A stretch of DNA of 34,398 bases from Pseudomonadota bacterium (GTDB taxonomy: Bacteria; Pseudomonadota; Gammaproteobacteria; Burkholderiales; Burkholderiaceae_C). Position numbers and translations under genes: made by a program. The notes under the pieces are model-generated. The model ran no database searches. It had not been told where the DNA came from and worked only from the letters and a program-made list of their open reading frames with translations. Below, in pieces: positions 7,335 through 33,228 of the stretch. The DNA is taken from assembly GCA_019351955.1 (NCBI GenBank), contig JABBOE010000026.1, forward strand, positions 1 through 34,398. Reading direction: 5' to 3'. How positions within the stretch are numbered: the stretch's first letter is position 1; each line of letters opens with the position of its first letter.

Positions 7335-9059
7335 TCAGGGCCGGCTTTCAATTGCGGCAGTGGTAATGATGACGAACTCTCCGAAGGCCTTCGGGTCATG
7401 CGCGCGCCTGACGCGGTACTCCAGTCGGGCGCCGTAGCGCGAACACAATTCCTGGGAAATATACAAACCCAGGCCCGTGCCGCGGCTGTCGGTGGTAAAA
7501 AAAGGCTCAAACATCTGCGCGCGCTTTTCAGGGGCTACGACCGGGCCGTCATTGGCCACGCTGAGTTCGCGCACTCGTCCAATGCCGCGCAGGCGCACGC
7601 GGATGGCTCCTGCGCGGGTGCTGGCGAAGCGGCGTGCGTTGCCGAGCAGATTCACCAGCACACGGCGCAGGTGCTGCGGATCAAAATGCAGGATCGCCGC
7701 CTCGTCGTCAGCCAGCAGTGCGACGCGCCCTTGCCCGTCGTGGTCAAACTCTGTGACCAATTCGCGCAGCATGCGCATGGGTTGCAGATCGATGCCTTCG
7801 CGCGCGGTGGATCGTCCGAGGTCAAGCACGTCTTCCACGATGCGGTTGAGCCGGTCCACATTCTGTGCAATCAACGCGGACATGCGCTCGCGCTGAACGT
7901 CATTCAGTCCGGGTTCGGTCGAGAGCTGGTTCGCCTGGGCAATGGCACTCAAGGGGTTGCGAATCTCGTGCGCGACACCGGCGACAAGACGCCCAAGCGC
8001 CGCAAGTTTGTCCTGCTGGATCTGATGGCTGATCTCCCGCAGATCCTGGACAAACACGACGTACCCTGGCTCGCCTGGCAATTGGCGCAAAAGTTGCACG
8101 CGCGCCTGCAGGCGCAGTCCGCTTGGCCCCTCGAAGGTGACCGGTGCAGGGGGAAAGCCTAATGCGGCATGCTGGCGCACTGCGTCGGCCAGCACGCGGG
8201 CGCCGGGGTGGCCGGTCAGGAGCACAGGCTCCGCCTCCGCGGTGTTAGGGTCGCTCAAGCCAAGCATGCGCACGGCTGCAGGGTTCGCCGTTTCCACCCG
8301 CAACGTCGCGTCGAGCACCATCACGCCGTCGGGCTGTTCAAGGAGCACATGGCGGTTGATGGCGAGCTGGCGCTTGGCTCGCATTTCACTGGCACGGGCT
8401 CGCTCCTCTTGGCGCACCAGCCGCTGCGATAGTTGCCAGGCCAGCACGCCGATGGCGAAATAGGCAGCCCCGACGAAGCCCGCGCCGAGGAATTGGGGGT
8501 CGGCGAAACGGCCGTTGCCTGCGAGCATCCAAAGGGCCTGCGCGAGAAGAATGAGCGACACGGCAGCGGCTGTGGCGAGCGTAAAGCGCAGGGTTCCATA
8601 TACGCCGGCTGCCAACACGGGTAGCGTGTAGCTGAGAATGAACTCCCGCGAGGGCTGGCCCGCCAAAAATTGCAGCGTGGCATAACCGGCCAAATCGGTC
8701 AGCACGGCCGCCAGGATCTGCCATGCAAAGCCGCGCGAAGTGCTGTGGCTCAACACGAACTGCAGCGTAACCACCACGGCATAACCCAGGGCGATCCACA
8801 ACCCCAGACGATGGCTCGCATGAGCCGGTGCCATCTCCGTCAGCAAAAACCACCCCAGCAAAATTCCACTCATCATCAGGCGCGCGGCGCCGAGCACGCG
8901 GAAGGAGCGCAGACGTTCCCGGCTAGGCGCCACACCCGAGATCATGCGGTCGAGCAGTGCGGAAGGGTGGGCGTTGGCTTGGTGTTCAGGTTGGAAGGCA
9001 AAGCCGCTGTCGGGCCTGCCTTCAGCGTCGCCTTGGCGCAATTCAGCCCAGGCGGGCAT
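7335..9059 (-). CDS. pilS: Membrane sensor histidine kinase, PilS-like
   Basis: N-terminal TM segments, PAS-like domain, VAGVAHEIRNPLSAI H-box, HATPase motif RGTGLGLYISQELCSRYGARL. Start uncertain (M at 9059 or longer ORF to 9182). Confidence 0.82.
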   Translation of the reverse strand: MPAWAELRQGDAEGRPDSGFAFQPEHQANAHPSALLDRMISGVAPSRERLRSFRVLGAARLMMSGILLGWFLLTEMAPAHASHRLGLWIALGYAVVVTLQFVLSHSTSRGFAWQILAAVLTDLAGYATLQFLAGQPSREFILSYTLPVLAAGVYGTLRFTLATAAAVSLILLAQALWMLAGNGRFADPQFLGAGFVGAAYFAIGVLAWQLSQRLVRQEERARASEMRAKRQLAINRHVLLEQPDGVMVLDATLRVETANPAAVRMLGLSDPNTAEAEPVLLTGHPGARVLADAVRQHAALGFPPAPVTFEGPSGLRLQARVQLLRQLPGEPGYVVFVQDLREISHQIQQDKLAALGRLVAGVAHEIRNPLSAIAQANQLSTEPGLNDVQRERMSALIAQNVDRLNRIVEDVLDLGRSTAREGIDLQPMRMLRELVTEFDHDGQGRVALLADDEAAILHFDPQHLRRVLVNLLGNARRFASTRAGAIRVRLRGIGRVRELSVANDGPVVAPEKRAQMFEPFFTTDSRGTGLGLYISQELCSRYGARLEYRVRRAHDPKAFGEFVIITTAAIESRP

Positions 9060-9264
9060 GTTCGGAGCAGCAGTAGGGGTTGTCGCCCTTCCAAACGCAG
9101 CGACTTTGCGGCGCGTGCACGCCGCAATGGCTGCAGGCGTACATGTGTTCCGGAGGAGCAGGCTTGGGGGGTTTGCGCGCACCGGGAATCTCGCGGTGCT
9201 GGTGGCTCTTCTTCAACAGAGTCAGTCCCACGATCACAACCACGAAAACGAGCAGGTATTTCAT
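9043..9264 (-). CDS. PP0621-family small protein (single TM plus Cys-rich C-terminal domain)
   Basis: MKYLLVFVVVIVGLTLLKKSHQHREIPGARKPPKPAPPEHMYACSHCGVHAPQSRCVWKGDNPYCCSEHARLG; TM helix followed by a Cys-rich segment. Confidence 0.75.
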   Translation of the reverse strand: MKYLLVFVVVIVGLTLLKKSHQHREIPGARKPPKPAPPEHMYACSHCGVHAPQSRCVWKGDNPYCCSEHARLG

Positions 9265-10088
9265 CGGTGCAGGATGACCTGAAGTACGAAGCGCGAACCG
9301 ACATAGCTCAGCAACAGCAGGGCTGAACCGGAGAACAACCAGCGCAATGCCTGCCGCCCGCGCCAGCCCAGGACGCCTCGGCCTAGAAGTAGAACTGCAA
9401 ATAGCAGCCATGCCGCTACGGCGAACACCGTTTGGTGGTTCAGTTCGAAGGCGTGCCCGAACAGTCGTTCGCTAAAGCTGATGGCGAAGATCAGGGAAGC
9501 GGTGAGCAAGGCGAAGCCGAGCGCGGCCAACCGGTAGGTCAGCTTTTCAAGGGTCAGCAGAGGAAGGGCCGGCCCGAGTCCCGCCAAAGTCGGCTGGCGT
9601 CGATGCAATGCGCGATCGGCGGACCAAAGCATGAACCCATGCAGCACCGCCGTACCGAATAGGCCATAAGCCGCAATGCCCATGGCCCAATGCAGTGAAA
9701 ACGCGATGCCCGCACCCGGTGGAGCCAGGCGGTCCCCTGGAAAGAACCAGGTCAATAGCAGGGAGATCGCCGCCAGCAGACAGATCCATGACCGCAGCCC
9801 CTGTAAGGGGTAATAAAGGCTTTCCACCCAGTACACGGCTGCAACCAGCCAAAACGTGAGCGACAGTGCCGGGGCAAACCCGAAATCTGGATCATGCAGA
9901 CCCTGAAGGACGAGGACAAAGCTGCTGGCATGGGCAAGCCACGCCAGCAGCATGGCTACGGTGGCAGCATCGCGATAGGGATGCGCCGGTGAGGCTTGGG
10001 TCGCGCGCGCTCGCCCACCACGCGGACGGGCAAGCAACGAAGCCAGCAGGTAGAGTACGAAGGCTGAGCCGTTGACTAAAATCCACAT
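9261..10088 (-). CDS. Cytochrome c biogenesis / CcsA-HemX-like inner-membrane protein
   Basis: Multi-TM protein with FSLHWAMGIAAYGLFGTAVLHGFMLW and SFSERLFGHAFELNHQTVFAVAAWLLFAVLLLGRGVLGWRGRQALRW. Confidence 0.8.
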   Translation of the reverse strand: MWILVNGSAFVLYLLASLLARPRGGRARATQASPAHPYRDAATVAMLLAWLAHASSFVLVLQGLHDPDFGFAPALSLTFWLVAAVYWVESLYYPLQGLRSWICLLAAISLLLTWFFPGDRLAPPGAGIAFSLHWAMGIAAYGLFGTAVLHGFMLWSADRALHRRQPTLAGLGPALPLLTLEKLTYRLAALGFALLTASLIFAISFSERLFGHAFELNHQTVFAVAAWLLFAVLLLGRGVLGWRGRQALRWLFSGSALLLLSYVGSRFVLQVILHR

Positions 10089-10270
10089 GTTTTGAGTTTA
10101 ACCGAGGGCCTTGCCGATTTTTGCCGCCGTGCGAGGAGGCCCATTGTCTCGCATCCGAGAACCGGGGTGCCGTCCCGGTTGGATGACACCTCAGCAAGTC
10201 CGGTCAGGCGCGCCTGCTCGCCATCCGGTTTACACCGTCCGTTGCCCCTGCAGATGGACACGCCAGACTA

Positions 10271-10300
10271 CCGCAGACCACCGCAGACCACCGCAGACCA
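10271..10300. repeat. Three perfect 10-bp tandem repeats (ccgcagacca x3)
   Basis: Read directly; ends 4 nt before the ffh ATG at 10305. Confidence 0.95.
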
Positions 10301-10304
10301 CTCT

Positions 10305-11660
10305 ATGCTCAATAACCTGACCCAGCGCCTGTCCCGAGTCGTCAAGACCATGCGAGGCGAGGCACGCATCACCGAGTCCAATATCGCCGACATGATGCGT
10401 GAGGTGCGGCTGGCCTTGCTGGAGGCGGACGTCGCGCTGTCTGTGGTGCGCGAATTCACCGCGCGCGTGAAGGAGAAAGCACTCGGGCAGGAGGTGGTGG
10501 GGTCGCTCTCGCCCGGACAGGCGCTGGTCGCCGTGGTGCACAAAGAGCTGGCGGCCCTGATGGGGCCCGAGGCCGTTGGCCTGAACCTCGCGGTGCAGCC
10601 GCCAGCGGTTGTACTCATGGCCGGCCTACAGGGCGCGGGCAAGACCACGACCACGGCGAAGTTGGCAAAGTGGCTGACCGAGCGTCAAAAGAAAAAGGTT
10701 CTCACGGTGTCGTGCGACGTGTACCGCCCAGCTGCCATCGCGCAGCTACAGACCGTCACACAACAGGCCGGGGCCGAATTTTTGCCCTCATCCCCCAGCG
10801 AAAAGCCGCTGGACATCGCGAAGCGGGCCGTGGAATATGCTCGCGCCCACCACTTCGATGTGCTGTTGGTGGACACCGCGGGCCGCCTGGCGGTGGATGC
10901 GGACATGATGCGCGAGATCGCCGAACTGCATGGCCTGCTCAAGCCGATTGAGACGCTTTTCGTAGTCGACGCGATGCAGGGCCAGGATGCGCTGGTCACG
11001 GCGCGAGCGTTCCACGATGCACTGCCGTTGACGGGAATCGTGTTGACCAAGCTCGATGGCGACGCGCGCGGCGGCGCGGCGCTTTCTGTCCACCACGTCA
11101 CGGGCGCTCCCGTGAAGTTCGCTGGTGTGTCGGAAAAAATTGACGGACTAGAGGCCTTCGACCCGTCGCGCATGGCGGATCGCATCCTTGGCATGGGCGA
11201 CGTGCTGGCGCTGGTGGAGGAGGCGCAGCGCAGCGTGGACATTCAGGCGGCGCAGCAGCTCGCACAGAAGGTGAAGTCGGGTGAACAATTTGACCTCAAT
11301 GACTTCCTCATGCAGCTGCAGCAGATGAACAAGATGGGGGGGCTGCAAGGGCTGATGGACAAACTCCCGGCGGAAATGCAGGCGCGCGCGGGTCAGGCCG
11401 ACATGGACAAGGCCGCGCGCGACGTGCGCCGCATGCAGGGCATCATCTGCGCGATGACCCCGCAGGAACGCCGCAAGCCGGACGTCATCAAAGCATCCCG
11501 AAAGCGTCGAATTGCCGCTGGTGCTGGCGTGCAGGTCCAGGAAGTCAACCGAATGCTCGGCCAGTTCGAGCAAATGCGCGACATGATGAAAAAGATGAAG
11601 GGTGGCAAGATGTTCAAGATGATGCAGCGCATGGGTGGCGCCGGATTGATGCGGCGCTGA
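10305..11660 (+). CDS. ffh: Signal recognition particle protein Ffh
   Basis: MLNNLTQRLSRVVKTMRGEARITESNIADMMREVRLALLEADV, GLQGAGKTTTTAKLA, DTAGRLAVDADMM, Met-rich M domain at the C-terminus. Confidence 0.96.
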   Translation: MLNNLTQRLSRVVKTMRGEARITESNIADMMREVRLALLEADVALSVVREFTARVKEKALGQEVVGSLSPGQALVAVVHKELAALMGPEAVGLNLAVQPPAVVLMAGLQGAGKTTTTAKLAKWLTERQKKKVLTVSCDVYRPAAIAQLQTVTQQAGAEFLPSSPSEKPLDIAKRAVEYARAHHFDVLLVDTAGRLAVDADMMREIAELHGLLKPIETLFVVDAMQGQDALVTARAFHDALPLTGIVLTKLDGDARGGAALSVHHVTGAPVKFAGVSEKIDGLEAFDPSRMADRILGMGDVLALVEEAQRSVDIQAAQQLAQKVKSGEQFDLNDFLMQLQQMNKMGGLQGLMDKLPAEMQARAGQADMDKAARDVRRMQGIICAMTPQERRKPDVIKASRKRRIAAGAGVQVQEVNRMLGQFEQMRDMMKKMKGGKMFKMMQRMGGAGLMRR

Positions 11661-11667
11661 ATGCAGG

Positions 11668-12336
11668 TCACCGCGCGGGACTGCGGCTGGCGAGCTGTTC
11701 GCTTGACGAGTTCACCACCCACTCTCGGCGCGCCCCAAGCACTGCATCGGGATAGGCAGCCTGACTGCGCGAGCCGTTGTAGCGTCCCAGCGCCATGAAA
11801 AGGTCGCCATGCTCCTCGTTGAGGTAATGCCTCAAGATGACACAACCGTAGCGCAAGTTCACTTGCATGCGAAACATAGCCAACTTGTCGCCATTGCCAA
11901 TCTGCTTGGTCCAGAACGGCATGACTTGCATCAGGCCCATGGCACCGACCGGTGAAATGGCGTATTTTTTGAAGCCGCTTTCCACCTGAATCAGCCCGAG
12001 CACAAGCGCCGGCTCAAGCCCTGCACGGCGTGCCTCATACCAAACGGTGCGCAGAAACGCCTCGCGCACAACACGGTTGGGCATACGCGCGCGTAGCCGA
12101 GTCGATTCCGTGGCCAGCCACAGCAGGTAGGTCACAAGGTGATTCGGATTTCGAAAATCGGGCGTCCGTACCGTGGAGTCTGCAATCTGGCCCGCGAGCG
12201 CTAGGCGTACCGCGTCCGAGAGCTGTTCTTCCTTTTGGTCACCGGCCCACGCAAGCGCCGCGCTCCCGGCCAACATGCCCATCAGCACGGCAAACGTGGC
12301 GAGGCGGCGCAGCCAAACCCATCGGTGCAGATTCAC
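11668..12336 (-). CDS. Lytic transglycosylase (SLT domain)
   Basis: LGLIQVESGFKKYAISPVGAMGLMQVMPFW and LRYGCVILRHYLNEEHGDLFMALGRYNGS. Start uncertain (GTG near 12336, or longer ORF to 12411). Confidence 0.85.
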   Translation of the reverse strand: MNLHRWVWLRRLATFAVLMGMLAGSAALAWAGDQKEEQLSDAVRLALAGQIADSTVRTPDFRNPNHLVTYLLWLATESTRLRARMPNRVVREAFLRTVWYEARRAGLEPALVLGLIQVESGFKKYAISPVGAMGLMQVMPFWTKQIGNGDKLAMFRMQVNLRYGCVILRHYLNEEHGDLFMALGRYNGSRSQAAYPDAVLGARREWVVNSSSEQLASRSPAR

Positions 12337-12370
12337 GGTGCGTATGTCGTGCGTTTGCAGGCGGCGCAAC

Positions 12371-14110
12371 TCAGGCGGCGCTGCGAGTGCGCAGATGCGC
12401 CAGCACCGCATCCAGCGCTATGGCGGTGGCCTGCGCATCGCGTCGGTGCTGGTATTCCAGCGTGCCAGCACTGAGTCCACGCTCAGAGACCACCAATCGG
12501 TGGGGTACCCCGATGAGTTCCCAGTCGGCAAACATCGCTCCCGGGCGCTCGCCGCGGTCGTCGAGGGCGACGTCCGCACCCGCGTCCAACAGTTGCAGGT
12601 ACAGCCGGTCCGCCGCCTCACGCACGGCGGCGCTGCGGTCGTACGCGATCGGGCAGATCACCACGGTGAACGGTGCGATCGCTTCGGGCCATATCATGCC
12701 GCGCGCGTCGTGATTCTGTTCAATGCACGCGCCGAGGATGCGGGTGATGCCGATGCCGTAGCAGCCCATTTCCAGCGTTTTGGACTTTCCGTTCTCGTCA
12801 AGGAACGTTGCGCCCATTGGGGCCGAATACTTGGTGCCGAGGTAGAACACATGGCCCACCTCAATCCCGCGGCAAATGGCAAGTTGACCGTTGCCATCAG
12901 GGCTCGGATCGCCAGCGACCACGTTGCGGATGTCAGCAACCTCGGGCTCTGGAAGATCACGGTCCCAATTCACGCCGGTGTAGTGGAAATCCTGGGCATT
13001 GGCGCCGACCACGAAATCGTGCATGGCGGCCACAGTGCGGTCGGCCACGATCCGCACTGCACGTGCGGTCCCGATCGGTCCAAGGTAGCCGGGGCTGCAT
13101 CCAAAATGTTCGATGATTTCAGCCTCTGTGGCCATGCGTGCGTCCTTCATACAAGGCAATTTTCTGACCTTGATGTCGTTCACCGCGTGGTCGCCACGCA
13201 CCAGCAGAAGCACGATGGCCGTCGACGCGACGCCGGACTCGCCGATCGGAGCCTCCACGGCCATGACCACCGACTTGACCGTGTGCTCAAGCGGGATGCC
13301 AAGCAGGGCGGCGACGTCTTCGCATTTCGCCGCGCCTGGCGTAGGTGTCTTGCGCAGCGGGGCTACGGCGGCTGCACGTCGGGCAATCAGTGGCAGCGCC
13401 TCGGCCAATTCCACGTTGGCGGCGAAGTCGGACTGCGGGCAGTAGGCAATCGAGTCCTCGCCCGTCTCGGCGATGACATGGAACTCGTGGCTCATCGAGC
13501 CCCCGATCGCACCGGAATCGGCCGCCACGGCGCGGAACTCGAATCCAAAACGCTGGAAGATGCGCTGATATGCCGCATACATGGTCTGGTAGCTCTGCTG
13601 GGCACCGGCGTAATCCCGGTCGAAGGAGTAGGCGTCCTTCATTGTGAACTCCCGCGCGCGCATCACGCCGAAGCGTGGCCGGCGCTCGTCGCGGAATTTG
13701 GTCTGAATATGAAAGAAATTCAAGGGAAGTTGCCGCCAGGAGCGAATCTCGCCGCGCGCGATGTCGGTGACCACCTCCTCGGACGTGGGCTGAACGACGA
13801 AGTCACGGTGGTGGCGGTCTTTGATGCGCAGGAGTTCCGGGCCATAGTGTTCCCAGCGTTCGGTTTCCTGCCAGAGTTCAGCCGGTTGCACCACGGGCAT
13901 CAGCAATTCAATGGCCCCGGCACGCGTCATTTCCTCGCGCACGATGGCCTCCACCTTGCGGATGCTGCGCAGACCCAGCGGCATGTAGGTGTACAGGCCA
14001 GCTGCGAGCTTTCTGATCATCCCGGCACGCAACATCAGGGCTTGGCTGGCGACTTCGGCATCGGCCGGGGCTTCTTTCTGGGTCGAAATGAAAAAGCGTG
14101 AAACGCGCAT
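12371..14110 (-). CDS. proS: Prolyl-tRNA synthetase
   Basis: [112 protein letters not shown]. Confidence 0.96.
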
Positions 14111-19798: not shown

Positions 19799-19875
19799 CG
19801 GGGTGTAGCTTAGCCTGGTAGAGCGCTACGTTCGGGACGTAGAGGCCGGAGGTTCGAATCCTCTCACCCCGACCA
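19799..19875 (+). tRNA. tRNA-Pro(CGG)
   Basis: 77 nt cloverleaf: acceptor CGGGGTG/CACCCCG, anticodon arm CTACG-TTCGGGA-CGTAG (anticodon CGG), TpsiC GGTTCGAATCC, encoded CCA. Confidence 0.95.
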
Positions 19876-19903
19876 AATTCTCTTGAGAAATCAAGAGGTT
19901 GCC

Positions 19904-19929
19904 AAAGCCGCAGACACTGCGGCTTTTGT
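19904..19929 (+). terminator. Rho-independent-like terminator after tRNA-Pro
   Basis: AAAGCCGCAG-ACA-CTGCGGCTTT followed by T-rich TGTG. Confidence 0.65.
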
Positions 19930-20045
19930 GTTTTCTGGGGTGCTGTTCCAATTCTGTTCCAAATCGGCGCAGTGGGTCAGCCTTTCCCGCTCCAGAAATA
20001 AACGCCGTGGCTACAGGAGTCTCCATTCATCATGCGGAGATATCC

Positions 20046-21635
20046 ATGGCAGACCTCACCAACCGCAGCCGCTTTCGCCTCACGGTCAAGAACAGTCCGG
20101 GGCGCACGCGCTACTTCCCCTTCAACAACGTCGAAGCCGTCCAGGCCGCCATGGACGCGCTGCGCGCGCAGGGTTTCAAGCCGCACGTCGAGCAGCTCGA
20201 CGAAAGCTGGCTCGTGCGTATCCGCGAGAAGGGCCATAAGCCGCTGCTGAGCACATTCAAGTCGAAGTCGGAGGCGCAAGCCTTCATCGCGCACAGCATG
20301 GAAGAGCGCAGCCGTGGGCTCTTTGTCGACTACACGGCCTCGCGCAAGGTGACCTTGGCACAGCTCTTCGTGCGCTACCTGCTCGAAGAAGCGCCAAGGC
20401 ACAAAAGCCACAAGGTTCTCGCATACTCGCTCGAGGGGTGGCTGGCCGACAGCGGGCCCGCGGGCGTTGCGCTGCTCGAGGGGTATCGTGAGGAGTTGCG
20501 GCGTCGAGGGCAAGTGGTGCGCCCTGCCAAGTTCCAGATGCGCCAAAGCAGCGGTGAGCTGAGCTGGATCCACAAGCCGCTGGCCGATGTGACGACGGTC
20601 GATATCGAACTGTTCATCAACGACCGGCTCGAGGCGGTCGAGCCGAGCACGGTGGACCGCGAAATTGACCGGCTGAAGAGCGTCCTCACGGTCGCCACGT
20701 CGGTCTGGGACTACCCGCTGCGCAAGAACCCCATGGTTGCCGTGCGCCGTCCCAAATACTTCAACGAAAGGGACCGGCGCATCTCGGCGGCCGAAGAGGC
20801 GCGATTGCTGGAGGCCTTGGCGCAATTGGATGGCGAGCAGGCGGTTGAGGCCCGCCTGTGTGAGCTCGCCCATGCGGCGATGCGCGACCAGGTGTTCTCC
20901 AGCCCCAGTGCGCGCAAGAAGGTGCTGGCTCAAACGCGCAGGCGGCTGCTGGCGTTGGCCGAGGAGAGCGCCCAGGTGGTGCCGTACTTGCAAGTCTTCT
21001 ATCTTTTCCAGGTCATGACAGCGGCCCGTCGCGGTGAGACCCTGGGGCTGACCTGGAACCGCATTGACTTCGAAGCCAAGACGGCCTTCCTGCCCGAGAC
21101 CAAGAACGGGCTGGCGCGCAAGTTGGCCTTGCGGCACGATTTGGTGGAGCTTCTGCAGGACCTTCCACGCGACACGGAGCGTGTGTTTGCAGTCGGCCTT
21201 GATGCTGTGGTCGGCGCCTGGACCAAGGCCTGCCTCATGGCTGGCGTCCACGATTTTCACATTCATGATGCACGTCACGAGGCCCTGTCACGTCTGGCGG
21301 AGAGTGGAAAATTTACGTTGCCGGAGATCCAGGTGTTCAGCGGCCACCAGGATCTGCGCATGCTGATGCGCTACGCCCATTTGTGCGCTTCGCGGTTGGC
21401 TCACAAGCTCGATGAGTGCTTCAAGGACGTCGAGAAGGTCCGCGTGCACCGGGGGGGGCGCCGCTTTCTCAACAAACGCGCCGGTGTCGCACCGGGCGCG
21501 CTGATGGACGGGGCGGAGCCTTTGACCTGTTCCCAGAGTGCCGCGGTCTCTGCGTGTGTGAGCGCGCTGCAGGAGCAAGAATCGACGCGCCTGGGCGCGA
21601 ACGTGATTGCATTTCGGCCTCGCCGAACAGCCTGA
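20046..21635 (+). CDS. Tyrosine recombinase / phage-type integrase
   Basis: C-terminal catalytic motifs TAARRGETLGLTWNRID, FHIHDARHEALSRLAE, FSGHQDLRMLMRYAHL (R, HxxR, H, Y). Start taken at MADLTNRSRF. Confidence 0.9.
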   Translation: MADLTNRSRFRLTVKNSPGRTRYFPFNNVEAVQAAMDALRAQGFKPHVEQLDESWLVRIREKGHKPLLSTFKSKSEAQAFIAHSMEERSRGLFVDYTASRKVTLAQLFVRYLLEEAPRHKSHKVLAYSLEGWLADSGPAGVALLEGYREELRRRGQVVRPAKFQMRQSSGELSWIHKPLADVTTVDIELFINDRLEAVEPSTVDREIDRLKSVLTVATSVWDYPLRKNPMVAVRRPKYFNERDRRISAAEEARLLEALAQLDGEQAVEARLCELAHAAMRDQVFSSPSARKKVLAQTRRRLLALAEESAQVVPYLQVFYLFQVMTAARRGETLGLTWNRIDFEAKTAFLPETKNGLARKLALRHDLVELLQDLPRDTERVFAVGLDAVVGAWTKACLMAGVHDFHIHDARHEALSRLAESGKFTLPEIQVFSGHQDLRMLMRYAHLCASRLAHKLDECFKDVEKVRVHRGGRRFLNKRAGVAPGALMDGAEPLTCSQSAAVSACVSALQEQESTRLGANVIAFRPRRTA

Positions 21636-21720: not shown

Positions 21721-22527
21721 ATGTCGAACTTCTCTCATCTCAAGCTGCTTACCAAGGCCGACGCTGCCGACATCTTCGGCGTATGCACCAAGACCATCGA
21801 CAACTACGTCCGGGAAGGCCTGTTGCCAGCGCCCGTTGCCTTCGCCAGCCGTGAATACTGGCACCCGACGGTCTTTCAGTCCTTCTTGGACCAGCGTTTC
21901 GGCCTTCCTGGCCCCCAGGCCTCGCCACAGCTGGATGCGGTGGGCGGCGCCGAGGCGCCCAATCGCGCGCCGCCCGGGGGAGCACTCGCATCGGCGAGAG
22001 TGACGCGCCGTCGGCCTGAAGCCCGACATCGGCCGATTGGGCATGTCAAACATCACGCCTTGCGGGTTCAAGTCAACGCAACCGCTTTTGCGCGTTCTGT
22101 GCGCATCATTGGCGGGTGGCTGTGGTCTTTCGATGCACCGGCGGGCGCGCTGGCCGTGGGCTTCGGCGAGCCGGCGTTCACCGCGGCAACCCGATGGCCA
22201 CATCGTGCGTGTTGTCCTGCAGCGCAGGTGTCGAGGCATTTGCAGAACGTGTTGAAAGCGACCTGCAAAGGCCGCATCCAGGCGGGCCGGGTGCGACCGC
22301 TCTTGGGTCCATCGTCATCAGCCTTGTCGCCCATGAGGCGGCCGGCTGAGCACGCGGCCGTTCAGGTACACAGCAGGCCGCCGTCGACCGCGATGGTCTG
22401 GCCGGTGATGAACTCCGAGCGGTCGCTGGCCAGCCAGGCGGCGAGTTCACCGAGGTCGCGCTTGTACGCCAGCCTGCCCAGCGGAATTCGTGCGCTGATC
22501 GCGCCGCGCACCGCTTCGGTCAGGTAG
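21721..22527 (+). CDS. AlpA/excisionase-like helix-turn-helix ORF; only the N-terminal ~65 aa is convincing
   Basis: LLTKADAADIFGVCTKTIDNYVREGLLPAPVAFASREYWHPTVFQSFLDQRF is an HTH_17/MerR-like domain. The C-terminal readthrough looks low-complexity and runs antisense into the SDR gene, so the true 3' end is not supported. Confidence 0.5.
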   Translation: MSNFSHLKLLTKADAADIFGVCTKTIDNYVREGLLPAPVAFASREYWHPTVFQSFLDQRFGLPGPQASPQLDAVGGAEAPNRAPPGGALASARVTRRRPEARHRPIGHVKHHALRVQVNATAFARSVRIIGGWLWSFDAPAGALAVGFGEPAFTAATRWPHRACCPAAQVSRHLQNVLKATCKGRIQAGRVRPLLGPSSSALSPMRRPAEHAAVQVHSRPPSTAMVWPVMNSERSLASQAASSPRSRLYASLPSGIRALIAPRTASVR

Positions 22528-23153
22528 GGCTTCATCATGTCGGTGTCGACCACCGCCGGCGCGATCGCGTTGACCCGGATCCCGCGGGGTCCGAGTTCGC
22601 GCGCCAAGCCCTGCGTGATGGCCACGACCCCGGCCTTGGTGGTTCCGTACCACACGTTGCCCACCGAGCCGCCGGCGCGGGCCGCCGACACCGACGCGAG
22701 GTTGAGGATGTGGCCGCGGCCCTTGGCGATCATCGAAGGCGCCACCGCCTGCACGCAGTTGTAGATCCCGGTCAGGTTGACCGCGACCAGGTCGTCCCAG
22801 GCCGCGCCGTCGGTCTGGTCGAAGGCGCCCTGCGCCAGCACGCCGGCGTTGTTGACCAGGATGTCGATGCGTCCGTGCGCGTCCAGCACGCGGCGCACCG
22901 TGTGGCCGGTCCCGGCGCGGTCGCGCACATCCATGCGCAGTGCGCTCGCCGTGCCGGCGATCGCGGCCGCGCCGCGTGCCGCGCCGTCGGCGTCGATGTC
23001 GGTCAGCACCACGGTGCAGCCGGAGCCGGCCAGGCGGGTGGCGATGTGCAGCCCGATGCCGCGGGCGGCTCCGGTGACCAGCGCGACGCGATCGCGCAGC
23101 TCCTGCTCCTGCGGTGGCGGCTGCGATGTGTCGTCCTTCGATCCGCGGTGCAT
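22362..23153 (-). CDS. Short-chain dehydrogenase/reductase (SDR)
   Basis: VALVTGAARGIGLHIA, ILVNNAGV, S...YGTTKAG (Ser and YxxxK), GLARELGPRGIRVNAIAPAVVDTDMM, FITGQTIAVDGG. Start overlaps the bioB stop (TGATG). Confidence 0.93.
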   Translation of the reverse strand: MHRGSKDDTSQPPPQEQELRDRVALVTGAARGIGLHIATRLAGSGCTVVLTDIDADGAARGAAAIAGTASALRMDVRDRAGTGHTVRRVLDAHGRIDILVNNAGVLAQGAFDQTDGAAWDDLVAVNLTGIYNCVQAVAPSMIAKGRGHILNLASVSAARAGGSVGNVWYGTTKAGVVAITQGLARELGPRGIRVNAIAPAVVDTDMMKPYLTEAVRGAISARIPLGRLAYKRDLGELAAWLASDRSEFITGQTIAVDGGLLCT

Positions 23154-24145
23154 CAATGGGTCTCCTGGGATGGCTGGGCCCGCATGCCCATGCGCTGCAG
23201 CAGCGCCAGGTCGGCCGAGGCCTGCGGGTTGGGCGTGGTCAACAGCGTATCGCCGAAAAAGATCGAGTTCGCGCCCGCCAGCAGGCACAGCGCCTGCAGC
23301 GAATCGTCCATGCTTTCGCGCCCGGCCGACAACCGCACCCTGGCGCGGGGCATGAGGATGCGCGCCACCGCGATGCTGCGCACGAATTCCAGCGGATCCA
23401 GCGGCGCCTGTTCGGCCAGCGGGGTGCCGGCCACGCGCACGAGGTTGTTGATCGGAACCGATTCGGGGTAGGGCTCCAGGTTCGCCAGCTGCACCAGCAG
23501 GCCGGCGCGCTGCGTGCGCGATTCGCCCATGCCGACGATGCCTCCGCAGCACACCTTGATGCCGGCCGAGCGCACCTGCTCCAGCGTGTCCAGCCGGTCC
23601 TCGTAGCAGCGGGTGCTGATGATGTTGCCGTAGAACTCGGGCGAGGTATCGAGGTTGTGGTTGTAGTAGTCCAGCCCGGCGTCGCGCAGCTGCTCGGCCT
23701 GCCCGGGCTGCAGCATGCCCAGGGTCACGCAGGTCTGCAGCCCCAGGGCCTTGACCTCGCTGACCATGCGGGCGACGGACTCGAGCTGCCGCGGCTTCGG
23801 GGAACGCCACGCGGCGCCCATGCAAAAGCGCGTCGCGCCGGCATCGCGGGCGCGCCTGGCGGCGTCGACCACGCTTTGCAGTTCGAGCAGCGCGCCGACC
23901 TTCAGCCCGGTGTCGTGATGCGCGGACTGCGGGCAGTACGCGCAGTCCTCCGGGCAGCCTCCCGTCTTGATCGACAGCAGCGTGGCCAGTTGGACCTCGG
24001 CGGGATCGAAGTGCTGCCGGTGCACCTGCTGTGCGCGGAACATCAGTTCGGGAAGCGGCAGTTCGAACAGATCCACGGCTTCGGCGACGCTCCAGCGGCG
24101 CTGCGCGACGCCGGACGCGGCCGGCGCAGTCTCGGGGGCGTTCAT
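23153..24145 (-). CDS. bioB: Biotin synthase (radical SAM)
   Basis: [24 protein letters not shown] (CxxxCxxC), [40 protein letters not shown]. Confidence 0.95.
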
Positions 24146-24159
24146 GGCATGCGGCTCCA

Positions 24160-24990
24160 TCAGGCGGCCTCGCGCAGGCCGAGGATGCGGCGCGCCTCGG
24201 CGGGCGTGGCGGGGCGTCGGTCGTGGCTGTCGCAGACGTCGACGATCTTGCGCACCAGTTCGGCGTTGCTGGCGGCCAGCCGGGTGTCGTCGTAGCGCAG
24301 GTTGTCCTCCAGGCCGGTGCGGCAATGCCCGCCCTCGGCCAGGCACCACTGGTTGAGCTCCCATTGCATGCGGCCGATTCCGGCGGCGACCCAGGTCGCT
24401 TCCGGCAGCACCTGCTGCAGCTCCGAGCGCAGGAAGTCGAAGATCGAGCGTCGCGCGGGCATCGCGTTCGGAACCCCCATGACGAACTGCACGTGGGCAC
24501 GCCGGTCCAGCAGCCCCGCCTTCACTAGTCGGGCGGCGCTGTAGAGCATCGCCAGGTCGAACACCTCGATCTCGGGCTTGATGTCGTACTCCTGCATCGA
24601 GCGCGCCAGGGCCTCGACGAAATCGGGAGGGTTCTCGTAGATGCCATTGGGAAAGTTCACCGAGCCGGTGGCCAGCGAGGCCATGTCCGGCCGCAGGTGC
24701 AGCATGGCGCCGCGCGCCGTCTGGTCGCGCCCGCGCCCGCCGGTGGAGAACTGGATGACCATGCCCGGGCAATACCTGCGCACCCCCTCCTGCACCCGGG
24801 CGTAGAGCTCGGGGTCCGAACTCGGCGACTCGTCGGGATTGCGCACGTGCACATGCACCAGCGAGGCCCCGGCCTCGAAGGCTTCGTGGGTCGATTCGAT
24901 CTGCTCCGCGGGGGTCACGGGGAGGGCCGGGCTGTCCTTCTTGCGGGGCAGGGCCCCGGTGATCGCGACGGTGATGATGACGGGCCGCAT
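24160..24990 (-). CDS. Beta-keto acid cleavage enzyme (BKACE, DUF849 family)
   Basis: [19 protein letters not shown] (HxH metal motif), [57 protein letters not shown]. Confidence 0.9.
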
Positions 24991-25180: not shown

Positions 25181-25768
25181 ATGACTGCTTCGAACGACCG
25201 AATGTCCTACAAGGATTTGCGAGAACTTGTAGAGCTGATCAATTCCTGCTCGCACTTCGGCGAATTTCATCTGAAGCTCGGCGAGCTCGAGCTCGACCTG
25301 CGGCGCGGCGACCCTGGCGCGGCACCGGCCGCCGCAGCGCTTGTCGCCCCAGCTGCCGCCGCGCTGCGCACGGCCGCCCAGGCCGTGGCGCCGGCGCCCG
25401 CTTCCCAGGAGTCGCCGGCGCGGCAGCGCCAGGGGCATGTCGGCGGCGGCGAACTCATTGTCGATGCCTCGCAGGGCCAGGCCTCGGCGCCGTCCGCGCA
25501 TTCGCCGGCGCTGGCCTTTCCTCCCGGCTCGGTGTTGGTCAAGTCGCCGATGGTCGGCAGCTGCTACCGCGCCCCCGAACCCGGCGCCAGGCCCTTCGTC
25601 GAGGTCGGGCAGACGGTGCAGGCCGACTCCACGGTTTGCATCATCGAAGTCATGAAGCTGATGAATTCGATCCCCGCGCCGGTCGCGGGGACGGTGACCC
25701 ACATCCTGGTGGGCGACGGCGAGGCCGTCGAGTACGGCCAGGTGCTGATGGTCGTGGACCCGGCCTGA
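25181..25768 (+). CDS. Stand-alone biotin carboxyl carrier protein (AccB-like)
   Basis: C-terminal biotinyl domain with [39 protein letters not shown]; AccB-like N-terminus and Ala/Pro linker. Confidence 0.9.
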
Positions 25769-25771
25769 GGC

Positions 25772-27190
<1,419 letters not shown>

Positions 27191-27202
27191 GAGGTGACCA
27201 CC

Positions 27203-28687
27203 ATGCAAGCTCCATCGGCCGGCGCGCAGCCGGCAAGCGCCCGCGACGAATTTCGCCTGGTCGACGTGACCCTGCGCGACGCCCACCAGTGCCTGTGGTC
27301 GACGCGCATGACCACCGAGATGATGGCGCCGATCGTCGGCACCATCGACCGCGTCGGATATGCCTTCATCAACATCCTCGGCGGCGCGGTGTTCGACGTC
27401 TGCGTGCGCTACCTGCACGAGGACCCCTTCGAGCGCGTGGGACTGCTGTGCGAGCGCTTCGAGACCCCCTGCGATGGACTCACCCGCGGCCAGAGCCTCT
27501 ACACCTTCGAGCTGTTCCCCGACGACATCGTCGAGCTCAACTCGAAGGCGCTGGCCAAGCGGGGCCTGAAGCTGCTGACGGTCTACGACGCGCTCAACGA
27601 CAACCGCAACATCGAGTCCTCGGTGCGCTCGGCGCACGAGCACGGGATGCAGGTCAACGCGATGATGACCTACACCCTCAGCCCGGTGCACACGGACGCC
27701 TACTACGTGCAGCGCGCGCGCGAGCTGGTGGCGCTGAAGGCCGACTACATCTCGATCAAGGATCCCACCGGGCTGCTGACGCCCGAGCGCGCGCGCACGC
27801 TGTTCCCGGCGGTGGTCGCCGCGGTCGGCGAGGTCCCGCTGCGCCTGCATTCGCACTGCCAGTCGGCGCTGTCGCCCGAGGTCTACCAGATCGCCATGCA
27901 AAGCGGCTTCTCTCTCGGCGACACCGCGGTGGAGCCGCTGGCCAACGGCGCCTCGCTGCCAGCGGCCGAGGAGATCGAGCGCCGCGCCCGCGCGCTGGGA
28001 ATCCGCACCGGACTCGACCTCGGCGCGCTGCAGGAGAGCTCCCAGTACTTCGACTGGCTGGCCGAGCGCGAGTCCAAGCCGCGTGGCGAGGTCGCCGCCT
28101 ACGACCCCGCGCTGTACGAGCACCAGGTGCCGGGCGGCATGATCTCCAACCTCAAATCCCAGTTGCAGACCATGGGCATGCAGTCGCGCCTGCCGGAGAT
28201 CCTGGTGGAGGCGGCGCAGGTGCGGCAGGACCTGGGTTATCCGATCCTGGTCAGTCCCTTCGCCCAGTACATCATCACCCAGGCGGTGCTCAACGTCGTG
28301 CAGGGCGAGCGCTACAGGACCGTCCCCGACGAGGTGCGCAAGTACGCGCTGGGCTACTACGGCAGGCTGGCCTCGCGTCCCAGCGACGAGTTCCTCGAGC
28401 GCGCTCGAATCCGCGACAGCGAGATCAGCGACGAGCGCCCGGCCGAGCTTTCGCGGGGCTGGGTCCCGCGCCTGCGCGCCGAACTCGGCTCGCAGGCCAG
28501 CGACGAGGAATTGCTGCTGCGCGCTTTCTACGACAAGGCGCTGGTCGCGCAGCTGCAGCCGAAGGGGCGCCGCTACGGCGACAAGACCACGCCGCTGCAC
28601 GAGCTGATCCGCTATCTGGGCAATCGCAAGGACATCCACTGCGCGCGCATCCGCTTCGCGGGAGTCGATCTGGCCGTATCGAGCTGA
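27203..28687 (+). CDS. HMGL/OadA-PycB-type carboxyltransferase subunit, no fused biotinyl domain
   Basis: [66 protein letters not shown]; ends without an MKxxN domain. Confidence 0.88.
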
Positions 28688-28939: not shown

Positions 28940-30382
28940 ATGTCAAGTACGACTTCAACGGATTTGTTTGCACAAGAGAATTTGCTCGCGCGCCTGGATC
29001 GCATGCCGATCAACGGCATCATCCTTTTGATCGTCGCCCTGCTCGGGCTGGTGTGGATCCTGGAGGCCTTCGACATCGGGATCATCGCGCCGGTGCTCCT
29101 GCTGTTGCGCTCGACCTGGCACCTGCAACCGCACGATGTCGGGCTGATCGGCAGCAGCGGAACGCTGGGCATCGTCATCGGCCTGTTGCCCGCCGGGCGC
29201 CTGGCGGACCGCTATGGTCGCAAGACCACGCTGATGGGCGGGATCGTGGTGTTCAGCGTGTTCACCTTCCTGAGCGCGTTTTCGCGTGACGTCAGCGAGC
29301 TGCTGATCTGCCGCTTCATCGCGGGTCTCGGCCAGGGCGCGGTGTTCCCGGTGCCCTACCTGCTGCTGTCGGAGTTCGTCAACAAGCACTGGCGCGGTAC
29401 GGCAGTCGGGCTGGCCAACTCCCTGCTGGGCTTCGCCTACGGCCTGAACACGCTCGCCGCCGCGCTGATCATAGGCCACGTGCCCGCCGACCAGGCGTGG
29501 CGCATGCTGCTGATGATCGGCGGCGCCGCCATCGTCATGATCCCGGTGATCATGATCTACCTTCCCGAGTCTCCGCGCTTTCTGCTCAGGATGGGCAAGA
29601 TGGACAAGGTGCGCGCGCTGGTCGAGCGGCTCGAGCGCCGCAGCGGCATTCCCCACGACGACAAGCTGAGCGATCCGCGCGCCCTGCAGGTGCTGCAGAT
29701 GGCGCGGGCGCGCCCGGCATCGTTTCGCACGCTGTTCGAGCCTCCGTACCTGGGACGGGTCGTGGTGTCCTACCTCGCGCTGCTGTCGCCGTTCATCCTG
29801 TTCTACGTGATCACCATCTACGGGCCCAGCATCCTGCATCGCATGGGTGCCAGCAAGTCCGACGCCCTCTACTACACCTCCGGCCTGCTGTTCCTCACCG
29901 TGGTGACTACCGCGATCGCCGGCAGCTTGGGCGACCGCTTCAGCCGGCGCATGGGCATCATCGTGCTGATGATCGGCACCGCGGTGGGTGCATCCGCGCT
30001 GGAGCAGCCGATTTCCAGGATCGGAGTGATCCTGGCGGCCGCGGCCACCTGGGGCTTCGTCTACGCCGTGTTCCCGCTGGCCAAGCTGTACATGGCCGAG
30101 CAGTTCCCGACGCGTCTTCGCGGTACCGGGGTGATGCTGGGCGAATGCGTGACCCGGTTTCTCGGCGGTGTCGTGCTGGTCTACCTGTTTCCCGTCCTGT
30201 CGGCCCGCATGGGCCAGGCCTCGCTGTTCACGCTGCTGGCCGTGCTCAGCCTGATCTGCATCCTGCCGATTTGGCTGTTCGGCACGCAGACCTCGGGACG
30301 AAGCGTCGAGGAGACGGGCACCGACCTCGGCGCCTACGCGCAGCCGGGTGCGGCGCGTGTGTCCGAGACGGCGGGCGGCTGA
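28940..30382 (+). CDS. MFS transporter
   Basis: About 12 hydrophobic segments; MFS motifs GRLADRYGRKTTLMGG and IYLPESPRFLLRMGKMDKV; preceded by GGAGA ribosome-binding site. Confidence 0.9.
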   Translation: MSSTTSTDLFAQENLLARLDRMPINGIILLIVALLGLVWILEAFDIGIIAPVLLLLRSTWHLQPHDVGLIGSSGTLGIVIGLLPAGRLADRYGRKTTLMGGIVVFSVFTFLSAFSRDVSELLICRFIAGLGQGAVFPVPYLLLSEFVNKHWRGTAVGLANSLLGFAYGLNTLAAALIIGHVPADQAWRMLLMIGGAAIVMIPVIMIYLPESPRFLLRMGKMDKVRALVERLERRSGIPHDDKLSDPRALQVLQMARARPASFRTLFEPPYLGRVVVSYLALLSPFILFYVITIYGPSILHRMGASKSDALYYTSGLLFLTVVTTAIAGSLGDRFSRRMGIIVLMIGTAVGASALEQPISRIGVILAAAATWGFVYAVFPLAKLYMAEQFPTRLRGTGVMLGECVTRFLGGVVLVYLFPVLSARMGQASLFTLLAVLSLICILPIWLFGTQTSGRSVEETGTDLGAYAQPGAARVSETAGG

Positions 30383-31618: not shown

Positions 31619-32338
31619 GTGGACTGGCAGTGGCTGGCCGTCGCGGGGGTCGCTGCGCTGGGCGGATTGATGCGCGGACTCACCGGCTTCGGCGGTGCAA
31701 TGGTCATGACCCCGATGCTCAGCCTGGCCTACGCGCCCAGGCGGGTCGTGCCCAGCGTCATGCTGCTCGAGGCGTTCATCGCCGCGCCGATGCTCGTCCC
31801 GGCCTTGCGTACGGCGCAACGACGGGTCGTCCTGGTGACCTGCCTGGCGGCCGTCGCCACGTTGCCGCTCGGAGCCTTCGTGTTGCTGCACACCCCGGCG
31901 CAGGCCTTGCGCCGCGGCATCGCTGCCGTGGTCATGGGCTTTTCGCTGCTGCTGTTATGCGGTGTGCGCTACCGGGGGCCGCGGCCGATGGCGTTGACGG
32001 CGGCGGTCGCCGCGGTCTGCGGCGTGCTGCTGGGTGCCAGCGGAATCGGCGGTCCGCCGCTGGTGGTCTACCTGCTGTCGGGGCCCGAGCCGATCGCGGT
32101 CACGCGCGCCAACATGACCGTGTATGCCAGCGTGATCTCGGTGGCGGGGCTGTGCCTGCTGTGGCTGCACGGGGCCTTGCAGCTGGGGGGCGCGCTGTCG
32201 CCCTGGCTGATGGCTCCGGCCTACGCCGCGGGCGTGCTGCTGGGCACGCACCTGCACGGCAGGACCCGCGAGGACGCGTTGCGGCGCGTCGCCGTGCTCA
32301 TGTTGATCGCCGTGTGCGCGGTGGCGCTGCTGCGTTGA
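31619..32338 (+). CDS. Sulfite exporter TauE/SafE-family permease
   Basis: Multi-TM; GGLMRGLTGFGGAMVMTPML and GVLLGASGIGGPPLVVYLL repeats typical of TauE/SafE; GTG start. Confidence 0.85.
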   Translation: MDWQWLAVAGVAALGGLMRGLTGFGGAMVMTPMLSLAYAPRRVVPSVMLLEAFIAAPMLVPALRTAQRRVVLVTCLAAVATLPLGAFVLLHTPAQALRRGIAAVVMGFSLLLLCGVRYRGPRPMALTAAVAAVCGVLLGASGIGGPPLVVYLLSGPEPIAVTRANMTVYASVISVAGLCLLWLHGALQLGGALSPWLMAPAYAAGVLLGTHLHGRTREDALRRVAVLMLIAVCAVALLR

Positions 32339-33167
32339 TCACGGGCTCAGAGGCGGCCTTGGCCGGCTTGCGGCGGCGCCCCCCCGGGGTTTCGGAGCCG
32401 CCGGCCGGCAGCAGGATCGCCGCGATCGCGTCGGCGGCGCGCCGCAGCGCCGGGGCGTGCTGCAAGGCCTGGTCGATGTTCATGCGCGCACTCGGCGCAT
32501 GCATCGCGACCGCCGCGTAGATACGGCCGGAGGAATCGGCGACCGGCACGGCCACCGCCACGGAGGCTTCGAACAGCTCGCTGTCGTGGGTCCCGATCCC
32601 GGTGCGCCGTACCAGCCGCAGGTGCTCGATCAGCTGGTCGACGTCGGTGATGGTTCGCTCGGTGTGGCGCTTGAGCTCGCCGTGGCCGAGCAGGCGCACG
32701 ATCTGCTCGCGCGACATGCGGCACAGGAACAGCTTGCCGCTGGCGGTGCAGTGCAGCGGCACACGTGTTCCGGGATCCAGGTGCAGGCGCAGCGGCAGCG
32801 TGGTCTCGACCCGGGCGACGTATAGCACCTCGTTGTCGTCGAGCATGGTCAGGTTGCAGCTTTCCTCGATTTCGTCGACCAGTTGCTGCAGCACCGTTTG
32901 GCACTGCGCGCGCAGCATCGAGTGCTGCATCGCGTCGATCGCCAGCTGCGACATGCGCGGGCCGATGACATAGCGCTTGCTCAGCGGGTCACGCTGCAGC
33001 AGGTCGGCTTCGTGCAGCATGCCGAGGATGCGGAACACGGTGGCCTTCGGCAGCGCGCAGGCCTGCGTCGCCTCGTCGAGCGACACCGGTGCGCCGGCCT
33101 TCACCACGTATTCGAGCACGCCGAATGCCCGGAGGGCGGTGGAACGAGCTTCTTTTTTGGATTGCAT
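32298..33167 (-). CDS. IclR-family transcriptional regulator
   Basis: N-terminal winged HTH (AFGVLEYVVKAGAPVSLDEATQACALPKATVFRILGMLHEADLLQRD) and IclR effector domain (LPLRLHLDPGTRVPLHCTASGKLFLCRM, IGTHDSELFEASVAVAVPVADSSGRIYAAVAMHAPSARM). Confidence 0.92.
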   Translation of the reverse strand: MQSKKEARSTALRAFGVLEYVVKAGAPVSLDEATQACALPKATVFRILGMLHEADLLQRDPLSKRYVIGPRMSQLAIDAMQHSMLRAQCQTVLQQLVDEIEESCNLTMLDDNEVLYVARVETTLPLRLHLDPGTRVPLHCTASGKLFLCRMSREQIVRLLGHGELKRHTERTITDVDQLIEHLRLVRRTGIGTHDSELFEASVAVAVPVADSSGRIYAAVAMHAPSARMNIDQALQHAPALRRAADAIAAILLPAGGSETPGGRRRKPAKAASEPVINAAAPPRTRRST

Positions 33168-33228
33168 GGGCTGCGCCGCGGGGAGTGCGAACGAATTATC
33201 GCAGCAGCCCGCAGCGCGCCGCATGGCG

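Follow-up and report, generated by a model that had tools for sequence, protein, structure and literature searches.

An OadA/PycB-fold carboxyltransferase encoded in a biotin-dependent operon beside a BKACE gene: a candidate ketone carboxylase subunit with sulfoacetone as a possible substrate

The window, meaning the whole stretch of 34,398 nt that was analyzed, carries on its forward strand an operon in which the genes for a biotin carboxyl carrier protein (BCCP; 25181–25768) and a biotin carboxylase (BC; 25772–27190) are followed, as third gene, by that of a carboxyltransferase (CT) subunit (27203–28687). BCCP presented the biotinylation motif EVMKLMN, matched Pfam Biotin_lipoyl and scored 134 bits with TIGR00531 (cut-off 115), and BC was above the cut-offs of NCBIfam PRK08591/accC. 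The CT reading frame is open as the preliminary description had read it, with 495 uninterrupted codons counting the stop; an alternative in-frame GTG start is found at 27194, and residues were numbered from the ATG at 27203. On the reverse strand lie the gene of a β-keto acid cleavage enzyme (BKACE; 24160–24990; PF05853, 329.9 bits; NF053568, 467 bits with a cut-off of 350), a BioB-like biotin synthase with radical SAM and BATS domains (23153–24145), which probably supplies biotin to BCCP, and an SDR dehydrogenase (22362–23153), whose homologues recur among related CT loci and which is a candidate for forming the ketone substrate by oxidation of a secondary alcohol.

Downstream of CT, the forward strand encodes an MFS transporter of the aromatic-acid/H+ symporter type (28940–30382), a candidate substrate importer whose place is taken in relatives by Ssu/Tau-like ABC or TAXI-TRAP transporters, and a TauE/SafE family anion exporter (31619–32338; PF01925, 93.7 bits). 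The latter, a member of a broad family and a candidate exporter of sulfite or sulfonate, was present in 17 of the 27 well-flanked related loci (those whose flanks exceeded 3.5 kb upstream and 2.5 kb downstream). An IclR-family regulator of PcaR/BhcR-like type (32298–33224, reverse strand) faces the operon, is conserved in related loci and probably regulates the cluster. Between the two transporter genes, a PRK08310-like amidase (30398 to approximately 31600, forward strand) is apparently frameshifted; compared with the intact 400-aa copy of locus L023, it is split by one or more frameshifts (6 gap positions in 1206 aligned columns), and represents either a pseudogene or an assembly error.

Upstream of the cluster, a tRNA-Pro gene (19799–19875, forward strand) directly precedes a tyrosine integrase (19899–21635, forward strand), and the GC content climbs from about 0.63 to about 0.69 at this boundary. 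These features suggest that the cluster sits on a genomic island bounded by tRNA-Pro and the integrase, which is considered probable; a search of the window for another att copy of this tRNA-Pro end found none.

CT is a carboxyltransferase of the OadA/PycB fold with intact metal ligands (D26, K186, H216, and H218). It matched Pfam PYC_OADA at 106.8 bits and HMGL-like at 34.5 bits, and its AlphaFold model (pLDDT 86), which supplied the structure prediction proposed in the preliminary description, retrieved 5ks8, 2nx9, and the transcarboxylase 5S subunit 1rqh in Foldseek with E values from 1e-36 to 3e-34. The ordinary explanation for such a protein would be a two-subunit pyruvate carboxylase or an oxaloacetate decarboxylase whose motifs drifted neutrally, and this finds some ground in the shared fold, in the identity of about 38–39% to PycB-type proteins (bit score 304 with 5ks8) and in a score of 424.6 bits with the loose NCBIfam domain model of pyruvate carboxylase subunit B (PRK09282, cut-off 402). 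However, every equivalog cut-off for OadA and pyruvate carboxylase was missed by about 2-fold or more, as with TIGR01108 (377 against 756). Members of this CT branch match PycB-type pyruvate carboxylase models and can easily be mis-annotated as pyruvate carboxylases. Moreover, CT has no fused biotinyl domain, as had been noted, BCCP being encoded separately at 25181–25768, and OAD_beta (PF03977) was unmatched in the whole genome to which the window belongs, which extends beyond the window the earlier remark that no OadB-like subunit is visible. With an ATP-dependent BCCP-BC-CT operon and OAD_beta not found in that genome, the Na+-pumping decarboxylase that had been judged unlikely was ruled out.

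The metal-site elements said to be kept are indeed so in the 33 aligned CT sequences, whose members are 47–87% identical to the window CT. In this set, R25, D26, H28, Q29, R69 (the substrate Arg), K186, D187, G190, H216, and H218 are invariant, as is the segment V350-S351-P352-F353-A354-Q355-Y356, and P188 and C219 reach a conservation of 90% or more. The divergence claimed from the OadA/PycB consensus held for four motifs, in which CT differs from 8/8 OadA/PycB/PC references: KDPTGLL against KDM[AS]G[LIV][LC], LGGAVFDV against WGGATFD, VSPFAQY against VTP[TLS]S[QK], and RDAHQC against RD[AG][HQ]QS. The residue following H-x-H, on the other hand, varies in true OadA/PycB/PC proteins (A, S, or D), and Ilyobacter OadA reads HTHC, so that HSHC was dropped as a diagnostic motif.

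Two of the altered positions fall on residues of known enzymes. S351 aligns with the Thr of VTPTSQ, the established catalytic Thr of pyruvate carboxylase (T908 in S. aureus PC), and P188 corresponds to the KDM Met, M186 in the 5S subunit, the position of the 1u5j mutant. The 5S subunit (1rqb/1rqh), whose structure was solved with bound pyruvate, has the same fold and metal site as CT, but it is only 29% identical, retains the KDM motif and acts as a partner subunit of a transcarboxylase. Similarly, PycA/PycB (5ks8) and OadA (2nx9) have the fold of CT, the ligands of its metal, its RDAHQ motif and its substrate Arg, whereas CT reads KDPTG for KDMAG, has LGGAVFD and another sequence in place of VTPTSQIVGTQ, lacks the fused biotinyl domain, and belongs to a separate branch. 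Judged from the alignments, the motif changes are a signature of the subfamily, kept in beta-, alpha-, and gammaproteobacteria, and not random drift, and CT thus keeps its metal site and the Arg that binds the anion, whereas the pyruvate pocket has an altered wall that became fixed. As the metal ligands and RDAHQ are preserved together with the substrate Arg, and Ser replaces the catalytic Thr, a methyl-ketone carboxylation chemistry is plausible.

The comparison with characterized enzymes by phylogeny, which had also been proposed, was performed by maximum likelihood on 52 rows, and the 8 OadA/PycB/PC rows were separated from the remaining 44, including the window CT, with 100/100 support. 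KDM at the carbamylated-lysine motif was found in 8/8 of the former and 0/44 of the latter, so the possibility that the residues of CT are common in these enzymes, raised beforehand as a refutation, was answered by KDM and WGGATFD in all eight references and neither in CT or its clade. Within the 44-row branch, the window CT falls in a 29-row subclade (support 99/98) marked by [LVMI]GGAV[FW]D, KD[PA][TS]G[LM]L, and VSP[FT]AQ[YF]. The distribution of CT is sporadic, with at least 60% identity in only 4/300 genomes sampled from the order. A plain pyruvate carboxylase was ruled out by the tree and the motifs, and the drifted pyruvate enzyme set out above is highly improbable in view of the separate branch, the missed equivalog cut-offs, motifs fixed over three classes, the sporadic occurrence, and the lack of OAD_beta in the genome. 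The phylogeny, the motifs, and the gene context thus lend good support to the earlier suggestion that CT would act on a substrate other than pyruvate.

The nearest described precedents are HpeCBA from Rhodococcus rhodochrous GD02 and XccBCA from Aromatoleum aromaticum EbN1, ATP-dependent acetophenone-type carboxylases in which BCCP, BC, and CT are separate, as in the window; HpeCBA uses ATP and bicarbonate to carboxylate 4-phospho-acetophenones (PMC9618137). The CT encoded in Hpe/Xcc-like loci is of the OadA type, has a motif other than KDM and belongs to the same 44-row branch, whereas the window CT belongs to a distinct subclade there. One of them, locus L115 of Rhizobium leguminosarum, with two PEP-synthase-like genes, BCCP, BC, CT, and HAD in this order, is named Hpe/Xcc-like by its gene order. 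As the branch contains loci of this arrangement and HpeCBA is a ketone carboxylase, the branch, taken broadly, probably contains ketone carboxylases.

Such loci differ from the window in several respects: the CTs of the plasmid-borne ones are only about 32–39% identical to the window CT, PEP-synthase-like kinase and phosphatase genes are present, and no close BKACE of the window subtype is found. No kinase or phosphatase genes of the Hpe/Xcc type were seen beside CT in the window and in the mapped relatives. An aromatic ketone route, suggested by similar CTs on plasmid loci of bisphenol-A degraders, Rhodococcus, and Rhizobium, was rejected because these partners are missing.

BKACE enzymes (PF05853) convert a β-keto acid and acetyl-CoA into an acyl-CoA and acetoacetate, and a carboxylated methyl ketone is a β-keto acid. 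A BKACE at least 50% identical to that of the window was found in 25 of the 27 well-flanked loci, covering three classes, and the BKACEs beside CT in beta-, alpha-, and gammaproteobacteria were 57–96% identical to it. In betaproteobacteria, the gene is divergent to the carboxylase genes, as in the window, and in alpha- and gammaproteobacteria it is usually placed directly downstream of CT on the same strand; in most loci of these two classes, the conservation of BKACE (about 70%) exceeds that of CT (about 48%). This conserved neighborhood indicates that the most likely reaction of CT is the carboxylation of a methyl ketone to a β-keto acid for BKACE, and there is high confidence that it carboxylates a non-pyruvate ketone whose product is fed to this enzyme. 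By its score, the window BKACE is a full member of the NF053568 family, a subtype named 3-oxoadipate:acetyl-CoA acetyltransferase (460–480 bits in relatives); the known BKACE substrates come from other pathways, whereas here the β-keto acid is predicted from the carboxylase. As the subtype is named for a dianionic β-keto acid, it matches a substrate with a distal anionic group.

The name of this model also makes levulinate a serious candidate, since methyl carboxylation of 4-oxopentanoate would yield 3-oxoadipate itself, which BKACE would convert to succinyl-CoA and acetoacetate. The fit of BKACE to the 3-oxoadipate model (467 bits in the window), named for that compound and not for a sulfonate, counts for levulinate and against sulfoacetone, and the IclR regulator and the MFS transporter resemble those of β-ketoadipate and aromatic acid pathways. 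Nevertheless, no known levulinate catabolism genes were recognized at related CT loci, and no paper joining levulinate, 3-oxoadipate, and a carboxylase was found in the open-licence literature searched. A levulinate carboxylase would also leave unexplained why the loci encode acylating sulfoacetaldehyde dehydrogenase (SauS), Xsc, and TauE, as well as the genome-level association, and it is regarded as quite unlikely.

SauS was searched with model NF047625 (cut-off 600) and found in nine related CT loci (L025, L035, L036, L038, L047, L051, L052, L056, and L061), scoring 760 bits in L025 and 754 bits in L061, where it is placed directly downstream of CT. Xsc was near CT in L037 and L039, one contig carries CT, SauS, and Xsc in L120/L121, and a single run in L119 (genome G284) comprises GMC dehydrogenase, IclR, Xsc, SauS, AMP-ligase, 3-hydroxybutyrate dehydrogenase, SDR, CT, BCCP, and BKACE. 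Genes for 3-hydroxybutyrate dehydrogenase, TauE, and Ssu/Tau-like ABC proteins were recurrent at related CT loci, the Ssu-like ones scoring under the curated cut-offs. In most CT loci, SauS was not within the flank that was fetched. SauS and Xsc are likewise absent from the window; both are found above cut-off on other contigs of the same genome, SauS (774 bits) with an AMP-ligase on contig C122 and Xsc (1033 bits) with a phosphate acetyltransferase on contig C222. This genome also has a likely sulfoacetate ligase, which gives SauS and Xsc another obvious role there.

At the genome level, SauS was present in 32/37 CT-bearing genomes against 27/300 of the order sample, and Xsc in 28/37 against 35/300, counts that are uncorrected for kinship. 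In the order sample, CT reached 60% identity or more in four genomes, all of which carry both SauS and Xsc (Fisher p 5e-5 and 1.6e-4), and within the genus the association of SauS is weak (5/6 against 7/22, p 0.06). Both genes were also found in 4/5 order-sample genomes whose best CT is a distant paralogue (41–45%), which indicates that catabolic generalism contributes to the co-occurrence.

Some gammaproteobacterial loci (L058, L059, and L068, two of them from Arenicellales) present a different neighborhood, in which genes for GST, CaiB, a carnitine-dehydrogenase-like protein, and an acyl-CoA synthetase come after CT-BKACE, and a TAXI-TRAP transporter is present; therefore, the substrate may vary within the clade. 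The carnitine-dehydrogenase-like gene (400 bits, cut-off 414) would suit trimethylaminoacetone, carboxylated to dehydrocarnitine, as one of several other ketones that could be passed to BKACE, together with simple aliphatic ketones and the phosphorylated aryl methyl ketones of the HpeCBA/XccBCA type. The KDP-type motifs common to CT and Hpe/Xcc-type proteins and the activity of HpeCBA on 4-phospho-acetophenones (PMC9618137) argue for this group. Yet HpeCBA needs a phosphorylated substrate and CT has no adjoining kinase or phosphatase, the name of the BKACE subtype refers to a β-keto acid that is anionic, not cationic, and the recurring partner genes are sulfonate genes, so that a ketone of this group is rather unlikely.

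The neighborhood of BKACE, SauS, and Xsc points instead to a sulfonated methyl ketone. If the acyl-CoA released by BKACE is sulfoacetyl-CoA, the substrate of SauS, then the β-keto acid would be 3-oxo-4-sulfobutanoate and the ketone sulfoacetone (2-oxopropane-1-sulfonate). By a slight balance of probability, CT belongs to a ketone carboxylase of three parts that depends on ATP and biotin and for which sulfoacetone is the likeliest substrate, with a route via BKACE, SauS, and Xsc; for sulfoacetone in particular, the chances are about even. The analysis established the family and fold of CT, its position in the tree, the conservation of its motifs, the order of the genes, and their linkage and co-occurrence; from chemistry and gene context we infer the direction of carboxylation, all of the substrates and the order of the steps. 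BC would load CO2 onto the biotin of BCCP using bicarbonate and ATP, and CT would deprotonate the methyl group of the anionic methyl ketone at its metal site and then transfer CO2 to it, as pyruvate carboxylase does on pyruvate, so that sulfoacetone, HCO3–, and ATP would yield 3-oxo-4-sulfobutanoate. With acetyl-CoA, BKACE would cleave this product to sulfoacetyl-CoA and acetoacetate, SauS would convert sulfoacetyl-CoA to sulfoacetaldehyde, and Xsc would release sulfite and acetyl phosphate from it. TauE may carry the sulfite out, the 3-hydroxybutyrate dehydrogenase found in relatives would handle acetoacetate, and the SDR may form the ketone from the secondary alcohol.

The predicted downstream half of this route corresponds to the sulfoacetate pathway (SauT-SauS-Xsc-Pta), SauS and Xsc being found in the same genome and in the CT clusters of relatives; in that pathway, however, sulfoacetyl-CoA is formed by a CoA ligase, whereas here it would arise from BKACE cleavage. 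No paper on acetonesulfonate, on sulfoacetone, or on Xsc together with a biotin carboxylase was found in the open-licence literature searched, whose titles and abstracts describe no 2-oxo- or hydroxypropane-1-sulfonate pathway. It is conceivable, though held with somewhat less than even confidence, that a hitherto undescribed CO2-dependent sulfonate catabolism occurs in soil and marine proteobacteria, in which the biotin enzyme and BKACE join methyl-ketone sulfonates to SauS-Xsc. If so, organosulfonates would have a new entry to central metabolism by carboxylation followed by acetyl-CoA-dependent cleavage, and the combination of biotin-dependent ketone carboxylation with BKACE cleavage would represent a general logic for methyl ketone degradation. 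The whole CT subfamily would also need a new name, and sulfoacetone or its alcohol would be predicted to occur as a sulfonate in the environment, neither compound being found discussed as a bacterial growth substrate in the open-licence literature.

Several further observations concern the composition of CT loci. In eight of them (L024, L029, L034, L037, L039, L046, L055, and L119), BC was not recognized between or beside BCCP and CT, which speaks against the reading preferred above, although the role of biotin carboxylase may fall there to the housekeeping AccC. Second or third CT paralogues occur in the same locus in L034 (at 0.3 kb) and L041 (at 0.6 and 5.8 kb), with the variant motifs IGGAVWDV and SPTAQFMVTQ, and possibly act on sister substrates. 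Plasmid pNK84 of Caballeronia sp. NK8 (L071) carries at 8974–12386 another CT-BCCP-BC set, with a CT 44% identical to that of the window; this set adjoins genes for acetoacetate decarboxylase, carbonic anhydrase, and biotin synthesis and is perhaps a further ketone carboxylase. Finally, a Sulfitobacter faviae plasmid (L114, 5142–8452) and locus L008 (genome G048) encode divergent CTs, FVPVVIKKMIRD and LAPSFIGKCVRD, which are devoid of the GGA motif and form a deep branch of their own.
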